A program made the position numbers and the translations under genes. This document shows positions 54,545 to 64,000 of a DNA stretch of 64,000 nt, one piece after another. The stretch is from Planctomycetota bacterium. GTDB taxonomy: Bacteria; Planctomycetota; Phycisphaerae; WQYP01. Positions within the stretch are counted from its first letter, which is position 1. Every line of letters starts with the position of its first letter. The DNA lies in the NCBI GenBank assembly GCA_021819825.1, contig JAKAEZ010000007.1, positions 1-64,000 on the forward strand. Direction: 5' to 3'. The notes under the pieces were generated by a model that ran no database searches, was not told the DNA's origin, and saw only the letters and a program-made list of their open reading frames with translations.

Positions 54545-54578
54545 TTTTCACGTTCCTTTCATGTTGTTGTGCTAACTT
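54545..54578 (+). promoter_or_regulatory. Pho-box-like direct repeat plus -10, promoter 1
   Basis: TTTTCAC-GTTC-CTTTCAT, 10 bp, TAACTT. Confidence 0.6.
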
Positions 54579-54688
54579 CGACTCGGCAGCATGCTTTCAT
54601 TTGGCGATTTCCGACCCGGATTTCCGGCGGTGGCAGATTGGTTGGAAGCGTGATGCCAGCGGTGTTTCTGGCAACGAAAGGAGCAACC

Positions 54689-55366
54689 ATGACACCCTGT
54701 GACCAAACTAATTCCACATATCGGGATAATCGGTGGAAGGCTCTGACGGTTCTGACCGTCGTATGCCTGATGGCATTTCCCTTGTGGCTGCATCAGGCAG
54801 TCGGCAAAGACCAAGCAATTGGTTTTGTGGTTATTGATCCAGGGCATGGCGGAATTGATCCGGGAACACGCAGCAGCACGGGTGTGGATGAAAAGACGAT
54901 TGTTCTGGCGGTGGCAAAGGATATGGTTCCCCTGCTTCGGCATGACCATATCAAGTTTGTCTTAACACGCGACCGGGATAAATATGTGAGTCTCAGTGAT
55001 CGCGTGCAGATCGCCAATCGCCCGGGCGATCGCCTGCTGCTAAGTATTCATTGTGACTATTTCCAGCAGCGCGGCATGGAGGGTTTTACCGTGCTTTACG
55101 CGCAAGGCGCTTCACATGATTCCCAGGTGGCTGCCCACCTCATCGCGGCAGGGCTGATCCATGAGGGTTTTAACTGCCATGACGTCCGTATGGACACCCG
55201 CAGACTGGAGGTTCTGGATAAAACCAATTGTCCAGCGGTGCTGGTGGAGCTGGGGTTCATGTCTGATCCGCATGATTTACGCTATCTCACGTCACAATCA
55301 GGCCGGCAAAAGCTCGCTGCCGGCCTAGTGCGAGGCCTTAAGGCCTATTTGCATGTGACACGATAA
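54689..55366 (+). CDS. N-acetylmuramoyl-L-alanine amidase (Amidase_3)
   Basis: AIGFVVIDPGHGGIDPGTRSSTGVDEKTIVLAVAKDM; ALVELGFMSDPHDLRYL-type C-terminus; AAAGGAG RBS. Confidence 0.9.
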   Translation: MTPCDQTNSTYRDNRWKALTVLTVVCLMAFPLWLHQAVGKDQAIGFVVIDPGHGGIDPGTRSSTGVDEKTIVLAVAKDMVPLLRHDHIKFVLTRDRDKYVSLSDRVQIANRPGDRLLLSIHCDYFQQRGMEGFTVLYAQGASHDSQVAAHLIAAGLIHEGFNCHDVRMDTRRLEVLDKTNCPAVLVELGFMSDPHDLRYLTSQSGRQKLAAGLVRGLKAYLHVTR

Positions 55367-55399
55367 AGCATCGCACGGCAAAATATCGGTGCAATCAGC

Positions 55400-55433
55400 C
55401 TTTCACGTTCCTTTCATGGAGGGATGTTAAGTT
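55400..55433 (+). promoter_or_regulatory. Pho-box-like direct repeat plus -10, promoter 2
   Basis: CTTTCAC-GTTC-CTTTCAT, 10 bp, TAAGTT. Confidence 0.6.
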
Positions 55434-55485
55434 AAGTCGATGCGGATTGAATTGTTCGATCCGTGATTTATTCAGGGGTGCGGTT

Positions 55486-56148
55486 ATGAATCGTAAAGCA
55501 TGTCTTATTATCGGGGTTGTTGGATTGGCTTTAGCAGCCAGAGGCACGCTGCCCGTGCGGGCCGATGCGCCGGACCATGGGGAATCCAAGGTGACCATGG
55601 CGCAATTGCCGACTGCTGTGGCTAAGACGCTTACGCAGGAAGCTGCGGGCGGGCAAGTTGGGGAAATTGATATGGCCGTCGGCGACCACCGAGTCACATA
55701 CGAAGCCGATGTGGTTATCAGCAAAATGCCCTATGAAATTAAAATATCCATGGATGGCACGCTGCTGAAAAAGCACCTAAGCGATATGGATCTTACGATG
55801 GCTGAACTCCCCGCTGCCGTTGCGGCAACAGTCAAGCAGGAAATGGGCAGCGGCAAGGCCTCCGATATCGAGGAAGATTACACTGATGCTGGAAGTGCTT
55901 ATTACAAAGCGACCGTGAAGATCGGCGAACACGCGTATAAGCTCAAAGTGCTGCCCGACGGCACGTTGCTGAAAATCAAACTCAAGAAAGAAGATCACGG
56001 CGACCATGAACATGGCGATCATGCGGATCACGGTGACCATGGGGATCATGGCCATGCGGATAAAGATCATGGAGATCACGGAGATCATGGCCACGGTGAT
56101 GGTGATCATGGGGATCACCATCATGGCGATCATGGCGACAACCACTGA
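55486..56148 (+). CDS. Exported tandem PepSY-like protein with His/Asp/Gly-rich C-terminal tail
   Basis: Two ~65-aa repeats (KVTMAQLPTAVAKTLTQEA...MDGTLLKKHL and DLTMAELPAAVAATVKQEM...PDGTLLKIKL), tail HGDHEHGDHADHGDHGDHGHADKDHGDHGDHGHGDGDHGDHHHGDHGDNH. Confidence 0.8.
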   Translation: MNRKACLIIGVVGLALAARGTLPVRADAPDHGESKVTMAQLPTAVAKTLTQEAAGGQVGEIDMAVGDHRVTYEADVVISKMPYEIKISMDGTLLKKHLSDMDLTMAELPAAVAATVKQEMGSGKASDIEEDYTDAGSAYYKATVKIGEHAYKLKVLPDGTLLKIKLKKEDHGDHEHGDHADHGDHGDHGHADKDHGDHGDHGHGDGDHGDHHHGDHGDNH

Positions 56149-56177
56149 CCGCCGGACATAAAAGCATCCTCCTCCCT

Positions 56178-56221
56178 AAGCAGGGCTGGCCCGTGGCGCT
56201 ATGGGCTGGCCCTGCTTTTTT
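56178..56221 (+). terminator. Rho-independent terminator-like hairpin
   Basis: AAGCAGGGC...GCCCTGCTT followed by a T-run. Confidence 0.7.
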
Positions 56222-56461
56222 CAGTCATTTACGACATTAATGCCGCAGATCAGCTTATGCAGGCTCGATCGCGCTTAGATTTGACCCCGGTACAAACTGG
56301 GTAGGTACATCGCACACTTCAGATTTCCTCTCCAGGGGCCTGGCCGAGTAATTGTCGGGTTACAACAGCGATTGCTGGGACAGGCTTCTGGCAACTGAAC
56401 ATGAAGATCCGATTAAAGTGATATTCTTTGGTCCACGCCCGACCGGATCGTGATCATGGGC

Positions 56462-56495
56462 TTTTCATCTTCCTTTCATAAACTTCCTTTATAAT
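56462..56495 (+). promoter_or_regulatory. Pho-box-like direct repeat plus -10, promoter 3
   Basis: TTTTCAT-CTTC-CTTTCAT, 10 bp, TATAAT. Confidence 0.65.
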
Positions 56496-56557: not shown

Positions 56558-57232
56558 ATGCGGGTACTGGTGGTTGAAGATTTTAAGACGCTAAGGGAAT
56601 CCATCGCGCAAGCTCTGCGCGAACAGACCTACGTGGTCAATGAAGCCGGTGACGGGCGGTTGGCCTTATGGCACCTGCAGAGCGGACATATTGATGTGGT
56701 CATACTGGATTTAATGATGCCGGGGATCGATGGCTTTCAGATACTCAAGGCCATGGAACGCATGAAAGCCCGACCTGCGGTACTGGTTCTGACAGCACGC
56801 GACACTGTGGATGACCGGGTCAAAGGATTGGATGCGGGAGCCGATGATTATCTCACCAAGCCCTTTGCCCTGGAGGAAATGCTGGCCAGAGTCCGAGCCT
56901 TAACGCGGCGGCGGTATAAAGTGGCATCATCGAAACTGACCATCGGAACCTTGGCCATAGACCTCAACGCCCGGCGGGCTTTCCGGGCCGGGGTGGAAAT
57001 TGAATTAAGCGCCCGGGAATATGCCATACTGGAGTATCTGGCCATGCGGCAGGGGGAAATTGTCTCACGGGCTGAAATTTGGGAACATGTGCATTGCGAC
57101 GATTCGCCGCCGGAAAGTAATGTCGTGGACGTATTTGTAAGCTTGCTGCGCAAGAAAATTGACGCGGATTCGCCGGATCGACTGATTCACACGCGGCGCG
57201 GACAGGGCTATATGCTTGGGGCAGGCGTTTGA
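56558..57232 (+). CDS. OmpR/PhoB-family response regulator
   Basis: MRVLVVEDFKTLRESIAQAL...VVILDLMMPGIDGFQIL...LTKPFALEEMLARVRAL; winged-helix C-terminus VVDVFVSLLRKKID...IHTRRGQGYML. Confidence 0.93.
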   Translation: MRVLVVEDFKTLRESIAQALREQTYVVNEAGDGRLALWHLQSGHIDVVILDLMMPGIDGFQILKAMERMKARPAVLVLTARDTVDDRVKGLDAGADDYLTKPFALEEMLARVRALTRRRYKVASSKLTIGTLAIDLNARRAFRAGVEIELSAREYAILEYLAMRQGEIVSRAEIWEHVHCDDSPPESNVVDVFVSLLRKKIDADSPDRLIHTRRGQGYMLGAGV

Positions 57233-58773
57233 TGGGGTCCATCCGACTACAGTTGACGCTCTGGTGCGGAGTGGCCATCGCACTGATGCTTGCGGTGCTC
57301 GGCGTAAGTTTGTATCTGACGCTGCAACATTCTTTGCAATCGCAGTTTAACGCCTCGCTTGTCGCTCGAGCCACCCTGCTTGTGGATACGCTGGATTGGG
57401 ACCCGCACCGCGGATTCCATGTCAGTCCCGATTTTACGCCCGTCGCCGGCGGCGGCGCGGAGGGGACGCCCCGCTATTTTCAGATATGGAGCCTGCAGGG
57501 AAAATCAGTGCTGCATCCGGCCACGCTGGGCAAACGCAATTTGAAATTTCTCACGCCGGCTCGCAATGCCGCCAAGTTTGCCGCCGTTGACTTGCCGGAT
57601 GACCATGATGGAAGAGAATTGGCGATCCGCTTTCGCGAGGGAAATAGTGATGGTGATGAGCATGATCATGATCATGATCATGCTCATCACCATGACCGCC
57701 ACGACCCTCTGGGCGATACTCACAAAAACCGTTCGATCCACACCTCAGCGGCCGAACATATTGGACAAGATTATATTCTCGCCGTGGCCCGTCCCACGGA
57801 TGATCTGGACAATGCGCTTTCCAGTATCGCCTGGTCGCTGGCGGTTTACTGTTCTTTGGCGACATTATGTTCGGCGGCTCTCATTGCGTGGCTTTTAAAC
57901 CGTGGATTACGCCCGGTAAATACGATTGCCCAGCAGATCGCGGGCGTGGGTGCCGCGCACCTGAAAGATCGCATAACCGCGGAAAATATTCCGCGTGAAC
58001 TGATTCCCATTGTGGATCGTCTTAATAAGTTGCTGGAGCGCGTGGAAGCGGCGGTACTCCGTGAAAAGGCGCTCACCGCCGATATGGCCCATGAGCTGCG
58101 AACGCCCCTGGCCGGCCTGCGCACCGGCGCGGAACTGGCGCTAACGCGCTTACGCACCTGTGAAGAATACCAGCGAACATTGCGGCAGTCGCTGGATATC
58201 AGCATTCAGATGCAGGAGATGGTGGAAAATCTGCTGACTCTGGCCCGGCTGGAAGCGGGAGCTTGGGGGCAGGCGGCGGAGAACTGCCGACTGGATCAAA
58301 TGACCGATCAGCAATTGAAGGGCTGTACCGCGAGAATTAATTCCCGCGCTGTGACGTTGGATAGTAGTGGTATTTCTCCGGCCGTTGTTAAGGCCCCGCC
58401 GGAGTTGGTGCTGCTGGTACTCCGCAATGTGCTGGACAATGCGGTCAGTTATGTTAATCATGGAGGCACGATTCGCGTGGTGCTGAAAAGTGAATCCGAC
58501 GCGGTGACATTAACGGTGGCTAACACGGGCAGCGCGATTTCAGTGCAGCAGTCGCAGCAGATATTTGAACGCTTTTGGCGCGGTGATGATTCCCGCACGG
58601 ATCAGGGCCGGCACAGCGGCTTAGGATTATCCATTGTGCAGAATGTCATGCGGCAAATCGGCGGCAGGGTGATCGTTGAATCCGCCGTCGGCCAGTGGTT
58701 TACTATTGTATTGTTATTTCCAAAGCATGGAGGCGATGGATCGCATGACAATCCGGGACATGAACGCCTGTAG
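57229..58773 (+). CDS. Sensor histidine kinase with His-rich extracytoplasmic loop
   Basis: DEHDHDHDHAHHHDRHD in the sensor region; HAMP; TADMAHELRTPLAGLRTGAELAL H-box; LDNAVSYVNHGGTI N-box; GLGLSIVQNVM. Confidence 0.9.
   Translation: MMGSIRLQLTLWCGVAIALMLAVLGVSLYLTLQHSLQSQFNASLVARATLLVDTLDWDPHRGFHVSPDFTPVAGGGAEGTPRYFQIWSLQGKSVLHPATLGKRNLKFLTPARNAAKFAAVDLPDDHDGRELAIRFREGNSDGDEHDHDHDHAHHHDRHDPLGDTHKNRSIHTSAAEHIGQDYILAVARPTDDLDNALSSIAWSLAVYCSLATLCSAALIAWLLNRGLRPVNTIAQQIAGVGAAHLKDRITAENIPRELIPIVDRLNKLLERVEAAVLREKALTADMAHELRTPLAGLRTGAELALTRLRTCEEYQRTLRQSLDISIQMQEMVENLLTLARLEAGAWGQAAENCRLDQMTDQQLKGCTARINSRAVTLDSSGISPAVVKAPPELVLLVLRNVLDNAVSYVNHGGTIRVVLKSESDAVTLTVANTGSAISVQQSQQIFERFWRGDDSRTDQGRHSGLGLSIVQNVMRQIGGRVIVESAVGQWFTIVLLFPKHGGDGSHDNPGHERL
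57650..57693. repeat. 44-bp perfect palindrome inside the histidine kinase gene
   Basis: ATGGTGATGAGCATGATCATGATCATGATCATGCTCATCACCAT equals its own reverse complement. Confidence 0.95.
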
Positions 58774-58855
58774 GCCGACCCTGCCGCATTGGCTGAATCA
58801 GAAAAGTTGTACCGCCTGTATCGGCGAGGGACTATTGCCAGATATTTTCCGCGTG

Positions 58856-60286
58856 ATGTTTTCCGCCCCGCGAAAACGCAAGATTTATATGCTTAGCGCC
58901 GGGCTTTTTTCTTGTTTTCTGCTGTTGGCGGGTTGTCAAAGTTATCATTCCATTCCGCTGACGGAGGCGCGGGTCAATCAGGCACTAAAAGTTCCGGTAT
59001 GGAAGCAGTTGCGCATTTCCGCCCAACGTATTCGCGGCATCGGGCTGCCGCCGCTGCCACTGCGGCCGACGGGCGGCATCACGCCTAATGAGGCGGCGGT
59101 CATCGCGGTGATACTTAATCCATCGCTGCGGGCGATACGGGATCAGCGCCATGAGGCCGCCGCACAGGTCATACAGGCCGGCATTTTGCCCAACCCGCAA
59201 GTGTCGGAATCAACGGCGTTGGTGACTGGAGGGTATCGTACCGGCACATTTACAGGTTACGGTCTTGGTGTGAACTGGGATGTTACACGATTAATTGATC
59301 ACGATGCCCGCGTGGCCTCGGCCCGATACCACCGCGGACAAGTGGATCTGGATGTGGCTTGGCAAGAATGGCAAACGGCTCAGGCGGCCCGGCTGGCGGT
59401 CTATAATCTCGCGGCGACAGAGGCGCAGTTGCATCAGGCTCGCCTGGCACAGCGCGAGCTGCAAAACAATGAACACGTGGTTCAGAAAGCCTATAATGCA
59501 AGTCTTAATACTATTCTGGATTTAAGCGCTGCCCGTGCCGCCAGCCAACAGGCACAAGCGCTGGTGGAGTCTTTAACACAAAAACGTGACCAAAATCTTA
59601 TTCGCCTGCGGATGGTTATGGGCCTGCCGATTGATGCGCCCATCCGCTTAAGTCGCACCATTCGGTTTCCCGCACGCATTGCCTTACCACCGGAGCGCGC
59701 TATTTTAAAAGATTTGCCGCGACTGAGGCTGGACCTGGTGGCGTTAAAATTGGGATATAAAAGCCAGCAGGAAGCCCTGCGGGCGGCGGTGCTGCGGCAA
59801 TTTCCGCGTTTAAGTCTGGGGTTTCAGCAGGCCAGCGACACGACCAATGTGCACACGACGGGATTCGGCGTCACGATTGACCTGCCCATCTTCGATCGCA
59901 ATCAGGGGAATATTGCCATTGCGAAAGCGACGCGCAAGTTTCTTTATGACAGCTATATTGCCCGCGAATTTGCCGCCCGATCCGCTGTGGCCATGGCCTA
60001 TTCCGATATTCATGCGTTGGGGGCGCAAATTGCAGCCAGCGATGCGGCGGTAAAAAGTCTGGCGGAGCTTGTGCAAACGTATCAGCAGGCGCTGAAGTTC
60101 GGCAATGTCGATATTGTCAGCTATTACACGGAAGTGGACCAATTAATTCAAAAGCGGATCAATGTCATTCAGCTTAAAAACCAACTTGAACGCAATCGTA
60201 TTGCACTGGCTCTGGCCGCCGGCACGTATGTGCCGGAAATGCGATCCAACCGGGCACCTGCGCAACAAGGAGCAACCAAACCATGA
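58856..60286 (+). CDS. TolC-family outer-membrane efflux lipoprotein
   Basis: LSAGLFSCFLLLAGCQ lipobox; TPNEAAVIAVILNPSLRAIRDQRHEAAAQVIQAGILPNPQVS; ORF opens at 58676 inside the kinase gene. Confidence 0.88.
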   Translation: MFSAPRKRKIYMLSAGLFSCFLLLAGCQSYHSIPLTEARVNQALKVPVWKQLRISAQRIRGIGLPPLPLRPTGGITPNEAAVIAVILNPSLRAIRDQRHEAAAQVIQAGILPNPQVSESTALVTGGYRTGTFTGYGLGVNWDVTRLIDHDARVASARYHRGQVDLDVAWQEWQTAQAARLAVYNLAATEAQLHQARLAQRELQNNEHVVQKAYNASLNTILDLSAARAASQQAQALVESLTQKRDQNLIRLRMVMGLPIDAPIRLSRTIRFPARIALPPERAILKDLPRLRLDLVALKLGYKSQQEALRAAVLRQFPRLSLGFQQASDTTNVHTTGFGVTIDLPIFDRNQGNIAIAKATRKFLYDSYIAREFAARSAVAMAYSDIHALGAQIAASDAAVKSLAELVQTYQQALKFGNVDIVSYYTEVDQLIQKRINVIQLKNQLERNRIALALAAGTYVPEMRSNRAPAQQGATKP

Positions 60287-61386
60287 CTCGATCCATGATT
60301 AGACTATCCTGGGCATTTGTGCTTATTTCCGCACTGGGAATCGGCGTTGTAGTCTGGCGACAAACAGGTCCCCGGACCTTCGCGGCAAGTACGGCGCACG
60401 CACCGGCGAGCCACCAGCGTCCACGGGTGATTGCCTATGTCAAAACCGTGCCCGTGCGCAGGCTGAATATCTCCGCTTCGGTGGTGGCTTATGGCACGGT
60501 TGTGGCGCGGGCCAGCTCCATTCGCAATGTAGCGGTTCCATTTAATGCGCAGGTGCTCCGCATTCTGGTGGCCGGGGGGCAGCACGTCAGAAAAAACGAA
60601 CCGCTGCTGCAACTGGAATCAACGAATTCCGAGCTGCTGCTGCTGGCGCAGGCCCGGAGTTCGGCACTTTCCGCGGAAGAACAACTTGCCGAAGTCAAAC
60701 AAAAATTTGCCTTGCATCTGGCTACACGGCAAAGCCTTCTGGCGGCCCGGCAGGCCCGGAAACTGGCACAGTTGAATTTAACAAACCTCAAAACGCTGGG
60801 GATCGGTGGGCCGCGTTTAATAAAAGCCCCCGCCGGCGGTGTGGTATCGAAGATACTTTCCGGACCTGGACAGATTGTTTTGCCCGGTGCCCCCCTTCTA
60901 CAACTGGTGTCCTCTCGAAATATTGAAGTCCAGTTAGGCCTGGAACCGGAGGACTCCATAAAAGTACGGCGCGGGCAAGCCGTAGCGTTGACACCCGTAG
61001 GCGAACCGGCAACGCACCAAATTCTGGGCCGCATTTCCTTAATTACGCAGCGCGTCAATCCGCTGACCCGGCTGGTGGATGTGTTTGTCACGCCGCGGAT
61101 ACACTCGGGGCTGCTGCTGGGGCAGTATGTGGAAGGAAAATTAATTATCGCAAAAGCTACGGGACTGGTGGTTCCGCGGGCGGCAGTGTTACCGGTGGGA
61201 AATGCCCAGGAATTATTTACCGTGCGCAATGGCCGGGCGGTATTGCATCTGGTGCATATTGGATTAACCAACACGCGGTATGTGCAACTGCTTAACAGCA
61301 GCGTGACGGCGGGTGAGCCGGCGGTGGTTGTGGGTAATGCGGAATTAACCAACGGAATGGCGGTTACAGGGACGTTTAAGCCATGA
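60283..61386 (+). CDS. RND efflux periplasmic adaptor (MFP)
   Basis: NAQVLRILVAGGQHVRKNEPLLQLES; IKAPAGGVVSKILSGPGQIVLPGAPLLQLVS. Confidence 0.9.
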   Translation: MTRSMIRLSWAFVLISALGIGVVVWRQTGPRTFAASTAHAPASHQRPRVIAYVKTVPVRRLNISASVVAYGTVVARASSIRNVAVPFNAQVLRILVAGGQHVRKNEPLLQLESTNSELLLLAQARSSALSAEEQLAEVKQKFALHLATRQSLLAARQARKLAQLNLTNLKTLGIGGPRLIKAPAGGVVSKILSGPGQIVLPGAPLLQLVSSRNIEVQLGLEPEDSIKVRRGQAVALTPVGEPATHQILGRISLITQRVNPLTRLVDVFVTPRIHSGLLLGQYVEGKLIIAKATGLVVPRAAVLPVGNAQELFTVRNGRAVLHLVHIGLTNTRYVQLLNSSVTAGEPAVVVGNAELTNGMAVTGTFKP

Positions 61387-64000
61387 ATTTTAATCAATGG
61401 ATTCATAAGCACACCCGGTCAGTGCTATTTATCATGCTGGTGCTGGCAGTGGGCGGAGCCTTGGCCGCTCTGGGGCTGCCGGTGGCGCTATTTCCGCGGG
61501 TAAGCTTTCCGCGTATTGAAGTCTCGGTGGATTCCGGCGAACAACCGGCCCAACGGATGGCGGTAGCGGTGACTTACCCGGTGGAGCAAGCGGTGCGGTC
61601 CATCCCCGGAGTGCAATCGGTTCAAGCTCGTACCGGCCGAGGGTCATGTGAACTGAAAATTGGCTTCGCCTGGGGTTCCGACATGGCGCAAGCGCTGCTC
61701 GAGGTGGACTCCCAAATTAACGGCATTCTACCTCGACTGCCCGCCGAGACGAGCTTTCGCGCCAAACGCATGGACACCACCAACTTTCCGGTATTGGGAT
61801 ACAGCCTGACATCCTCCACGGTTTCTCCCAGCCGCCTGCGCACGATTGCTAAATATCAGATTGAACCGGTGGTTTCCACGGTGCGCGGCGTAGCGCGGGT
61901 GCAGGTGCAGGGCGGGGCGATTCCGGAATATCATGTCATTGTTGATCCGGCCCGCCTGCAGGCCTTTAACATGACGCTGGCGGATGTTTCCCAAGCCCTT
62001 AGCGCGGCCAATGTACTTAGTGCGGTGGGCAAATTTGAAGACCATGACAAACTGTATCTGATTATTTCTAACACCAGCTACCGCAGCATCCGGCAGATTC
62101 AACAGGTCGTTCTCCGCACGGGTGCCAACGGGCTGGTTCGGCTGGGTGATGTGGCTACCGTTAAGCTTTCCACAAAGCCTCAATGGACGCGCGTGGATGC
62201 CGATGGACACCCCGCCGTGCTCCTACAGGTTTTCCAGCAGCCGGGCGGCAATACGGTGCGCATTGCCGCGGCCATTAAAAGAAAAATAGACAGTTTTAAG
62301 AAGAATCTTCCAGCGGGCATTCACATCGCGACGTGGTACAATCAAAGTCAGCTCATTCTGGCTTCGGCGGCATCGGTGCGGGATGCGGTACTCATTGGAA
62401 TCGTTCTGGCGGTGGTGGTGCTGCTGCTATTTTTGCGCAACTGGAAAATTACGCTGATTGCCGCGCTGGTGGTGCCGGCGGTACTCAGTTCCACCATTCT
62501 GCTTTTGTATCTGTTCCACATGACGTTTAATATCATGACGCTGGGCGGTATGGCGGCGGCGGTGGGGCTGATTATTGATGACGCGATTGTCATGGTGGAA
62601 CACATTGTGCGGCGCACCCGTGGAGCCGCCGGTGACATGCGTGGGCGGGTGATTAAAGCCACGCGGGAATTTACCGGCCCGCTGGCCGGATCATCCACTT
62701 CCACGATGATTATTTTCGCGCCGCTGGCCTTCCTTTCCGGCGTCACGGGTGCGTTTTTTAAAGCCTTGTCGTTGACCATGGCGGCGAGCCTGCTGATTTC
62801 GTTTTTTATGGCTTGGCTGGCGGTTCCGGTGCTGGCCGCCGGTTTTCTCGATCAACGCGATGCCAACCAGCCTGAAGGCGGTAGAATCACCGCCTATCTT
62901 CATCGCATCTATGGATGGATCATGGTGCGGATTCTTCGCGTGCCGGGGCTGGTGCTGGTGGTGCTGATCCCCATTCTGGTGCTTGGATTTGCCGCCTATA
63001 AGAATGTCGGAAGTGGTTTTATGCCCCACATGGACGAGGGGGGCTTTATTCTTAATTACGTGGCAAATCCAGGCACCTCCCCCACAGAAACCAATCGGCT
63101 GTTGCTGGAAGTGGAAAAAATAATTCTCGCTAATGAATATGTCGATACATTTTCACGCCGAACCGGATTACAACTCGGCGGCGGCACCACACGATCCTAC
63201 ACCGGTGATTTTTTTATCCGCCTCAAGGGATTTCCCAGACCACCCATTGAGCAGATTATGACGGCGATTCGCCGACGAATCCGCCGGCGCGTGCCGGGGC
63301 TGAAAATTGACACCGCCCAGATGATGCAGGACCTGATCGGGGATCTGACCGCGGTACCACAGCCCATTGAAATAAAAATTTTCTCGGACAGCGGCCCGAT
63401 GCTGGATGCACAGGCCCTGAAAGTGAAACGCGCCATATCGTCGATTCCCGGCGTGGTGGAAGTGCGCAGCGGCATTCAGATCGCGGGCGATGCGCTGCAG
63501 ATTCGCGTGAATCGCATCAAAGCCGCCCTGCAGGGCATGACCGCCGGCGCGATTACCACCGCGTTAAATCAGTATCTTTCCGGCACGGTGACCACGCGAA
63601 TCCAACGCGGCCCGCAGATGATCGGCGTGCGCGTGTGGGTGCCCCAGGCCGACCGCGCCACGGAACAGGATATCGACAACCTGCTGTTGCGCGCACCCGA
63701 TGGACATTTATTTCCGCTCAAAGAGGTGGCGTCGATTGAAACACTCACCGGTCAGCAGGAGATATTCAGCGATAATCTCAAACGCATGATTGCCGTTACC
63801 GCCCGCATCAACGGCCGCGATATGGGTTCGACCGTTGCGGCGGTGCAGCAGGTGCTTAATAAACCGGGCATGTTTCCGCACGGGATGTATTATGCGATGG
63901 GCGGGTTGTACAAACAGCAGCAAATCGCATTTAAGGGCCTCTTGGTGGTGATGATCGCCGCGGTTTTGCTGGTTTTTCTGGTGCTGCTATTTCTTTATGA
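61383..64000 (+). CDS. RND efflux inner-membrane permease (3' end outside window)
   Basis: Own translation: MNFNQWIHKHTRSVLFIMLVLAVGGALAALGLPVALFPRVSFPRIEVSV...FNIMTLGGMAAAVGLIIDDAIVMVEHIVRR. Open to window end; absent from the ORF track because no stop is reached. Confidence 0.93.
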   Translation, partial: MNFNQWIHKHTRSVLFIMLVLAVGGALAALGLPVALFPRVSFPRIEVSVDSGEQPAQRMAVAVTYPVEQAVRSIPGVQSVQARTGRGSCELKIGFAWGSDMAQALLEVDSQINGILPRLPAETSFRAKRMDTTNFPVLGYSLTSSTVSPSRLRTIAKYQIEPVVSTVRGVARVQVQGGAIPEYHVIVDPARLQAFNMTLADVSQALSAANVLSAVGKFEDHDKLYLIISNTSYRSIRQIQQVVLRTGANGLVRLGDVATVKLSTKPQWTRVDADGHPAVLLQVFQQPGGNTVRIAAAIKRKIDSFKKNLPAGIHIATWYNQSQLILASAASVRDAVLIGIVLAVVVLLLFLRNWKITLIAALVVPAVLSSTILLLYLFHMTFNIMTLGGMAAAVGLIIDDAIVMVEHIVRRTRGAAGDMRGRVIKATREFTGPLAGSSTSTMIIFAPLAFLSGVTGAFFKALSLTMAASLLISFFMAWLAVPVLAAGFLDQRDANQPEGGRITAYLHRIYGWIMVRILRVPGLVLVVLIPILVLGFAAYKNVGSGFMPHMDEGGFILNYVANPGTSPTETNRLLLEVEKIILANEYVDTFSRRTGLQLGGGTTRSYTGDFFIRLKGFPRPPIEQIMTAIRRRIRRRVPGLKIDTAQMMQDLIGDLTAVPQPIEIKIFSDSGPMLDAQALKVKRAISSIPGVVEVRSGIQIAGDALQIRVNRIKAALQGMTAGAITTALNQYLSGTVTTRIQRGPQMIGVRVWVPQADRATEQDIDNLLLRAPDGHLFPLKEVASIETLTGQQEIFSDNLKRMIAVTARINGRDMGSTVAAVQQVLNKPGMFPHGMYYAMGGLYKQQQIAFKGLLVVMIAAVLLVFLVLLFLY

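Follow-up and report, generated by a model that had tools for sequence, protein, structure and literature searches.

Candidate operator boxes of an OmpR/PhoB-type regulator precede amidase, PepSY-like and RND efflux genes in a family of Planctomycetota

Introduction

Response regulators of the OmpR/PhoB type bind direct repeats head-to-tail. The PHO box of Escherichia coli consists of 7-4-7 direct repeats that are read in tandem by a winged helix of this type, that of PhoB (PMC4415409), and the operator of the activator BqsR (TTAAG-N6-TTAAG) of a pair of direct repeats whose period is 11 bp, the downstream repeat overlapping the -35 and the two promoter-proximal repeats being critical for expression in the promoter dissected there (PMC4682146). 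The cre/blr tag (TTCAC-N6-TTCAC; CreB/BlrA) likewise has an 11-bp period and is linked to cell-wall stress (PMC3660660), while the Bae envelope stress response combines regulator-controlled multidrug efflux with the periplasmic protein Spy (PMC6863773).

PepSY proteins provide a second line of precedent. In the part of a recent account drawn on here (PMC12714742), they are >60-fold enriched over chance beside two-component systems in bacteria, and DbfQ of Vibrio cholerae is described as binding the sensor domain of its kinase, which it shifts toward phosphatase activity. According to the same part, a small secreted PepSY protein is encoded beside a regulator and a kinase in DbfQRS (V. cholerae) and in PA2658-BqsRS (P. 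aeruginosa), and the operon of such modules is positively autoregulated and activated by outer-membrane stress; Planctomycetota, the lineage studied here, are not named in it. UipA is a tandem PepSY protein that binds uranium/metal ions (PMC8963506).

Here we describe a locus that resembles each of these systems in part, within a 64,000-nucleotide stretch of planctomycetal DNA (the window). Its half-site, TTTCAY, is nearly identical to that of the cre/blr tag (TTCAY), but its targets differ and its regulator falls below the CreB cut-off (NF008296, 139.4 bits against 273), so that CreB membership was rejected. The half-site also differs from that of BqsR, and there are few sites per genome, whereas BqsR has hundreds of candidate sites at up to two mutations. 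A small secreted PepSY-like protein is encoded adjacent to the regulator and kinase, within four genes of them; unlike the protein of DbfQRS, as far as that partial account goes, it is tandem, has a His-rich tail and possesses its own promoter and terminator, and the module adds amidase, TolC-MFP-RND, PAP2 and DUF347 genes. In contrast to the Bae response, the regulated periplasmic protein is PepSY-like and not Spy, and the metal binding known for UipA is putative here. The principle is known, but no description of this regulon, its operator half-site or its target set was found in the literature.

Results

The original prediction held that three promoters share a 7-4-7 direct repeat with a TANNNT hexamer 10 bp downstream, and all three sites (3/3) were recovered at their positions with 0 mismatches:

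54545..54562, + strand: operator box 1, amidase promoter, TTTTCAC-GTTC-CTTTCAT (sequence reading, footprint alignment)
54573..54578, + strand: -10 of promoter 1, TAACTT, with TG at 54570-54571
55400..55417, + strand: operator box 2, pepSY promoter, CTTTCAC-GTTC-CTTTCAT (sequence reading, alignment)
55428..55433, + strand: -10 of promoter 2, TAAGTT, with TG at 55425-55426
56462..56479, + strand: operator box 3, promoter of the response regulator operon, TTTTCAT-CTTC-CTTTCAT (sequence reading, alignment)
56490..56495, + strand: -10 of promoter 3, TATAAT

In full, the sites read TTTTCAC-GTTC-CTTTCAT-GTTGTTGTGC-TAACTT (54545-54578), CTTTCAC-GTTC-CTTTCAT-GGAGGGATGT-TAAGTT (55400-55433) and TTTTCAT-CTTC-CTTTCAT-AAACTTCCTT-TATAAT (56462-56495). 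Two features had been overlooked in the original prediction: the TG lies one base before the -10 of promoters 1 and 2, making these extended -10 elements, and a sigma-70 -35 consensus, looked for at all three promoters, is present at none.

Three perfect matches to YTTTCAY-N4-CTTTCAT-N10-TANNNT lie in the window; when up to 3 mismatches are allowed there are 4 matches against 0.34 expected, and 0/100 shuffles reached 4. Third-order Markov copies of the window, 300 in all, never contained the full pattern (mean and maximum 0). A genome-wide scan, proposed at the outset as a check, covered the assembly of 2,492,035 bases (2.49 Mb; 72 contigs, 67.6% complete) and found a slightly shorter exact pattern only at these three sites, with 0 hits for the reversed-pattern control. 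A chance or low-complexity origin of the repeats was rejected by the shuffles, the Markov copies and the whole-assembly scan. Two other perfect repeats of the assembly (C3:14109 and C33:3131) lack the -10 at N10, and the repeat at C3:14109 is found at the beginning of a coding frame outside the six target types defined below. As the assembly is incomplete, more targets may exist.

Profile matches bore out the gene identities proposed behind the boxes, namely an Amidase_3 protein, a His-tailed PepSY-like protein (its match being below cut-off) and an OmpR-type regulator-kinase-TolC-MFP-RND operon:

54689..55366, + strand: N-acetylmuramoyl-L-alanine amidase (Amidase_3), secreted (Pfam PF01520, E=9.7e-45)
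55442..55464, + strand: stem-loop at roughly +1 of the pepSY transcript, conserved (10 pairs, with 87.8% of cells paired across 9 promoters)
55486..56148, + strand: secreted tandem PepSY-like protein with a His/Gly/Asp-rich C-terminal tail (PF11396, E=0.001, below cut-off)
56178..56217, + strand: intrinsic terminator between pepSY and the regulator operon (18-pair stem plus T tract)
56558..57232, + strand: OmpR/PhoB-type response regulator, the candidate for box binding (Response_reg + Trans_reg_C)
57232..58773, + strand: sensor histidine kinase with a His-rich stretch in the sensor region (HisKA + HATPase_c)
58760..60286, + strand: TolC-type outer membrane efflux protein
60283..61386, + strand: RND periplasmic adaptor, MFP (TIGR01730, above cut-off)
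61383..64000, + strand: RND permease with DD motif IIDDAIVMVEH, extending past the window end

A strong terminator separates pepSY from the regulator gene, so transcription of the regulator operon probably depends on promoter 3. The regulator combines a receiver domain with a Trans_reg_C winged helix (Pfam E-values 6e-31 and 2.9e-22), and the nearest NCBIfam models of the regulator and of the kinase are cztR_silR_copR and cztS_silS_copS, respectively, each matched below cut-off. Membership in the CusR/CzcR/SilR group was rejected, as the best-scoring models reached only 211.3 of 279.2 bits for the regulator (TIGR01387) and 234 of 292.6 bits for the kinase (TIGR01386). Since the regulator lies below every curated family cut-off given here, its binding specificity is not readable from a known relative. 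A scan of named genomes yielded only three near homologues, all of them Planctomycetota MAGs.

To follow the boxes among relatives, 60 genomes were searched for the regulator and, separately, for the box, which occurs in exact form in 15/61 genomes (reversed control 0). Regions were taken around regulator orthologues and separately around box hits, gene calls in the relatives being open frames, and to avoid circularity the spacing test was restricted to the regions fetched by regulator homology (L085-L104). In these regions a half-site spacer of 5 was present in 11 exact and 31 one-mismatch boxes (any other spacer in at most 2 and at most 11, respectively), and the gap between box and TANNNT was exactly 10 in 28 boxes with at most 1 mismatch (any other gap in at most 2). 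These boxes, 28/28, precede six gene types: amidase (8), PepSY-like protein (8), regulator (4), short secreted His-rich protein (4), PAP2 phosphatase (2) and DUF347 membrane protein (2). In genus-level alignments of the amidase and pepSY promoters, upstream conservation is strongest in the box and the -10, which stand out as identical stretches where the remainder has diverged, and the per-column information of 39 sites, which were selected by the pattern, peaks at TTTCA of both half-sites and at the -10. The original prediction had made conservation of the repeats and their spacing in orthologous promoters decisive, and both are conserved. The operator fits the tandem OmpR/PhoB type, with direct repeats of about 11-bp period over the -35 position, a preferred spacer of 5 and gap of 10, and no -35 consensus.

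The boxes are not confined to the vicinity of the regulator gene. In G005 the amidase and pepSY boxes sit on a contig other than that of the regulator, and in G024 a DUF347-TolC-MFP-RND operon, also on another contig, carries its own exact box, so that the link between regulator and box works in trans. That an RND operon detached from the regulator has its own box (L108) agrees with the proposed membership of the RND unit in the regulon. Relative G006 lacks the amidase gene, and a pepSY copy there follows immediately on an amidase-type box identical to window site 1 (L086, 6522-7078). The claim that the regulator autoregulates held in part: a box precedes the regulator gene here and in G002, G003, G005 and G018, but it has been lost in G004, G006 and apparently G007, and autoregulation through an own box is therefore not universal. 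G003 has two copies of the regulator-kinase pair (L089 and L091, on contigs C217 and C14). Region L105 has two identical boxes 227 bp apart (6282 and 6509, - strand) on either side of a stretch of N, upstream of a PepSY-like gene; this arrangement probably stems from a recent tandem duplication or from an assembly join.

Box presence was also compared across 298 genomes of the class. The exact box occurs in 14/28 genomes of the family versus 6/270 others of the class (p=3e-12, kinship ignored), on a background of a handful of reversed-control hits in the class-wide scan. Within the family, 14/20 genomes with a regulator orthologue (>=52% identity) carry it, versus 0/8 without one (p=0.002, relatedness ignored), and these eight genomes hold 8-44 other regulator-like candidates each; as the genomes are related to each other, both p-values are indicative only. 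The box thus tracks this regulator and not other OmpR paralogues, which supports the proposal that the 56558 product probably controls the three units. Upstream of distant regulator homologues (52-54% identity) in other families, no such box was found. Two of the six exact boxes outside the family (G037 and G145) directly precede PepSY-like genes, a hint that the link to PepSY is older than the family. These two boxes, in two other families (L241 2183 and L242 3260, both - strand), have no regulator orthologue nearby, and the PepSY-like protein at L242 3260 has an Asp-only tail.

In G037 the same box precedes a PepSY_like protein that passes the cut-off, and the PepSY-like protein of the window shares 32% identity with it. 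The secondary structure of the window protein was predicted, with low confidence, as alpha-beta4 twice (AlphaFold model pLDDT 48.6 from a 3-row alignment), and a PDB sequence search with this protein returned nothing meaningful. Across nine pepSY leaders, two or three pairs of the stem-loop at the start of the pepSY transcript have changed in a compensatory manner (A-U/G-C, U-A/C-G). Possible roles of this stem-loop are those of an mRNA-stabilising hairpin at the 5' end or of an inverted-repeat operator. In four regions (L094, L097, L099 and L102) the PepSY-like protein is absent from this position and the box precedes short secreted proteins with C-terminal HGDHEH-type repeats. One might go further and see a lineage-specific envelope regulon in which secreted, metal-binding PepSY/His-rich proteins are among the regulator's own targets and signal periplasmic conditions back to the kinase, the tandem-PepSY and simple His-rich versions being interchangeable feedback ligands at the same locus, but we consider this extended reading doubtful.

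The link to metals contained in the original prediction fared unevenly, being suggested by the His-rich tails but not by the RND permease, which has the DD signature of drug-type pumps: its TM4 motif, IIDDAIVMVEH, is one that we take to be drug-type DD and not a metal-pump signature. The permease, incomplete at the window end, reached 388.6 bits with TIGR00914 (cut-off 701), and the kinase varies in its His-rich stretch. A metal involvement is suggested by the tails and by analogy with UipA.

Could the boxes be PHO boxes of a separate PhoB, with the genes behind them in a phosphate regulon? They share the 7-4-7 geometry of the E. coli PHO box, and CTTTCAT is one base away from the PHO repeat CTGTCAT (PMC4415409). 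However, the box is absent from the strongly conserved leaders of the pst operon (pstS) in G004, G005 and G006, its presence follows the regulator beside it, phosphate genes were not found behind any box, the genes there being envelope genes, and the regulator scores 172.5 bits with the PhoB model TIGR02154, far from the cut-off of 296.2. Its recognition helix (NVVDVFVSLLRKKI) also differs from what we take to be the helix of E. coli PhoB. Since the pst promoters of these three relatives are boxless, the boxes do not mark a phosphate regulon, and with the PhoB cut-off missed as well we rejected this reading as very unlikely. The pstS leaders of the same three relatives (L219-L221) share a long conserved block with TTAAC repeats, which may be the lineage's real phosphate operator.

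A slightly better case can be made for another OmpR-type regulator, encoded elsewhere, that binds the boxes and has the local regulator merely as one target, as this regulator family has many members, with 14 first-look candidates in this assembly, and binding by the local regulator is itself deduced. Against this, the exact box is absent from the family genomes that lack the orthologue despite their many OmpR paralogues, the one near-match checked, in regulator-less G023, falls inside a coding frame, and boxes cluster around the gene of the local regulator in most genera of the family; we thus hold a distant regulator to be improbable. Least credible of all, to the point of being dismissible, is a resemblance of the three sites that stems from recent duplication of one promoter or from chance, without a common regulator. 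It is true that boxes 1 and 2 agree at 17/18 positions and that G002, G003 and G005 have pepSY paralogues whose promoters are similar, but the three promoters have unrelated flanking sequences, the box persists across genera whose flanks have diverged, orthologous promoters do carry it, and non-homologous targets (PAP2, DUF347, regulator, His-rich proteins) have it with identical spacing.

Discussion

The three repeats are, with high probability, operators of one OmpR/PhoB-type regulator, most likely the product of the gene at 56558, that would activate a small envelope regulon. As three envelope genes have a common box whose spacing is kept in relatives, they very probably form one stress-response circuit under the adjoining regulator. 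Two regulator molecules would bind head-to-tail on half-sites 11 bp apart (TTTCAY-N5-TTTCAY), over the usual position of the -35, and this pair would bring sigma-70 RNA polymerase to the -10, which begins exactly 10 bp downstream and belongs to the extended type at two of the three promoters. Such a geometry fits activation of the BqsR kind. The peptidoglycan amidase, the secreted tandem PepSY-like/His-rich protein and the regulator-kinase-TolC-MFP-RND operon would in this way be switched on jointly, and in relatives the boxes would also control PAP2 phosphatases and the DUF347 membrane protein.

The presence of amidase, PAP2, efflux and PepSY genes among the targets points to an envelope-stress response. 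We infer that the regulator binds and activates at the boxes, that the kinase senses envelope stress, possibly metal-linked, and that it is subject to feedback from the PepSY-like protein; a feedback like that of DbfQ is plausible by analogy.

Regulatory sites are seldom defined in uncultured Planctomycetota. Here, sequence alone yields a cis-element, a spacing rule, a likely regulator and six target gene classes, all of which a heterologous reporter could test. Among the targets, cell-wall hydrolysis, PAP2 phosphatases and efflux come together with a PepSY-type periplasmic protein, and the locus would add a further phylum, and a defined operator, to what was recently described of PepSY-two-component modules.
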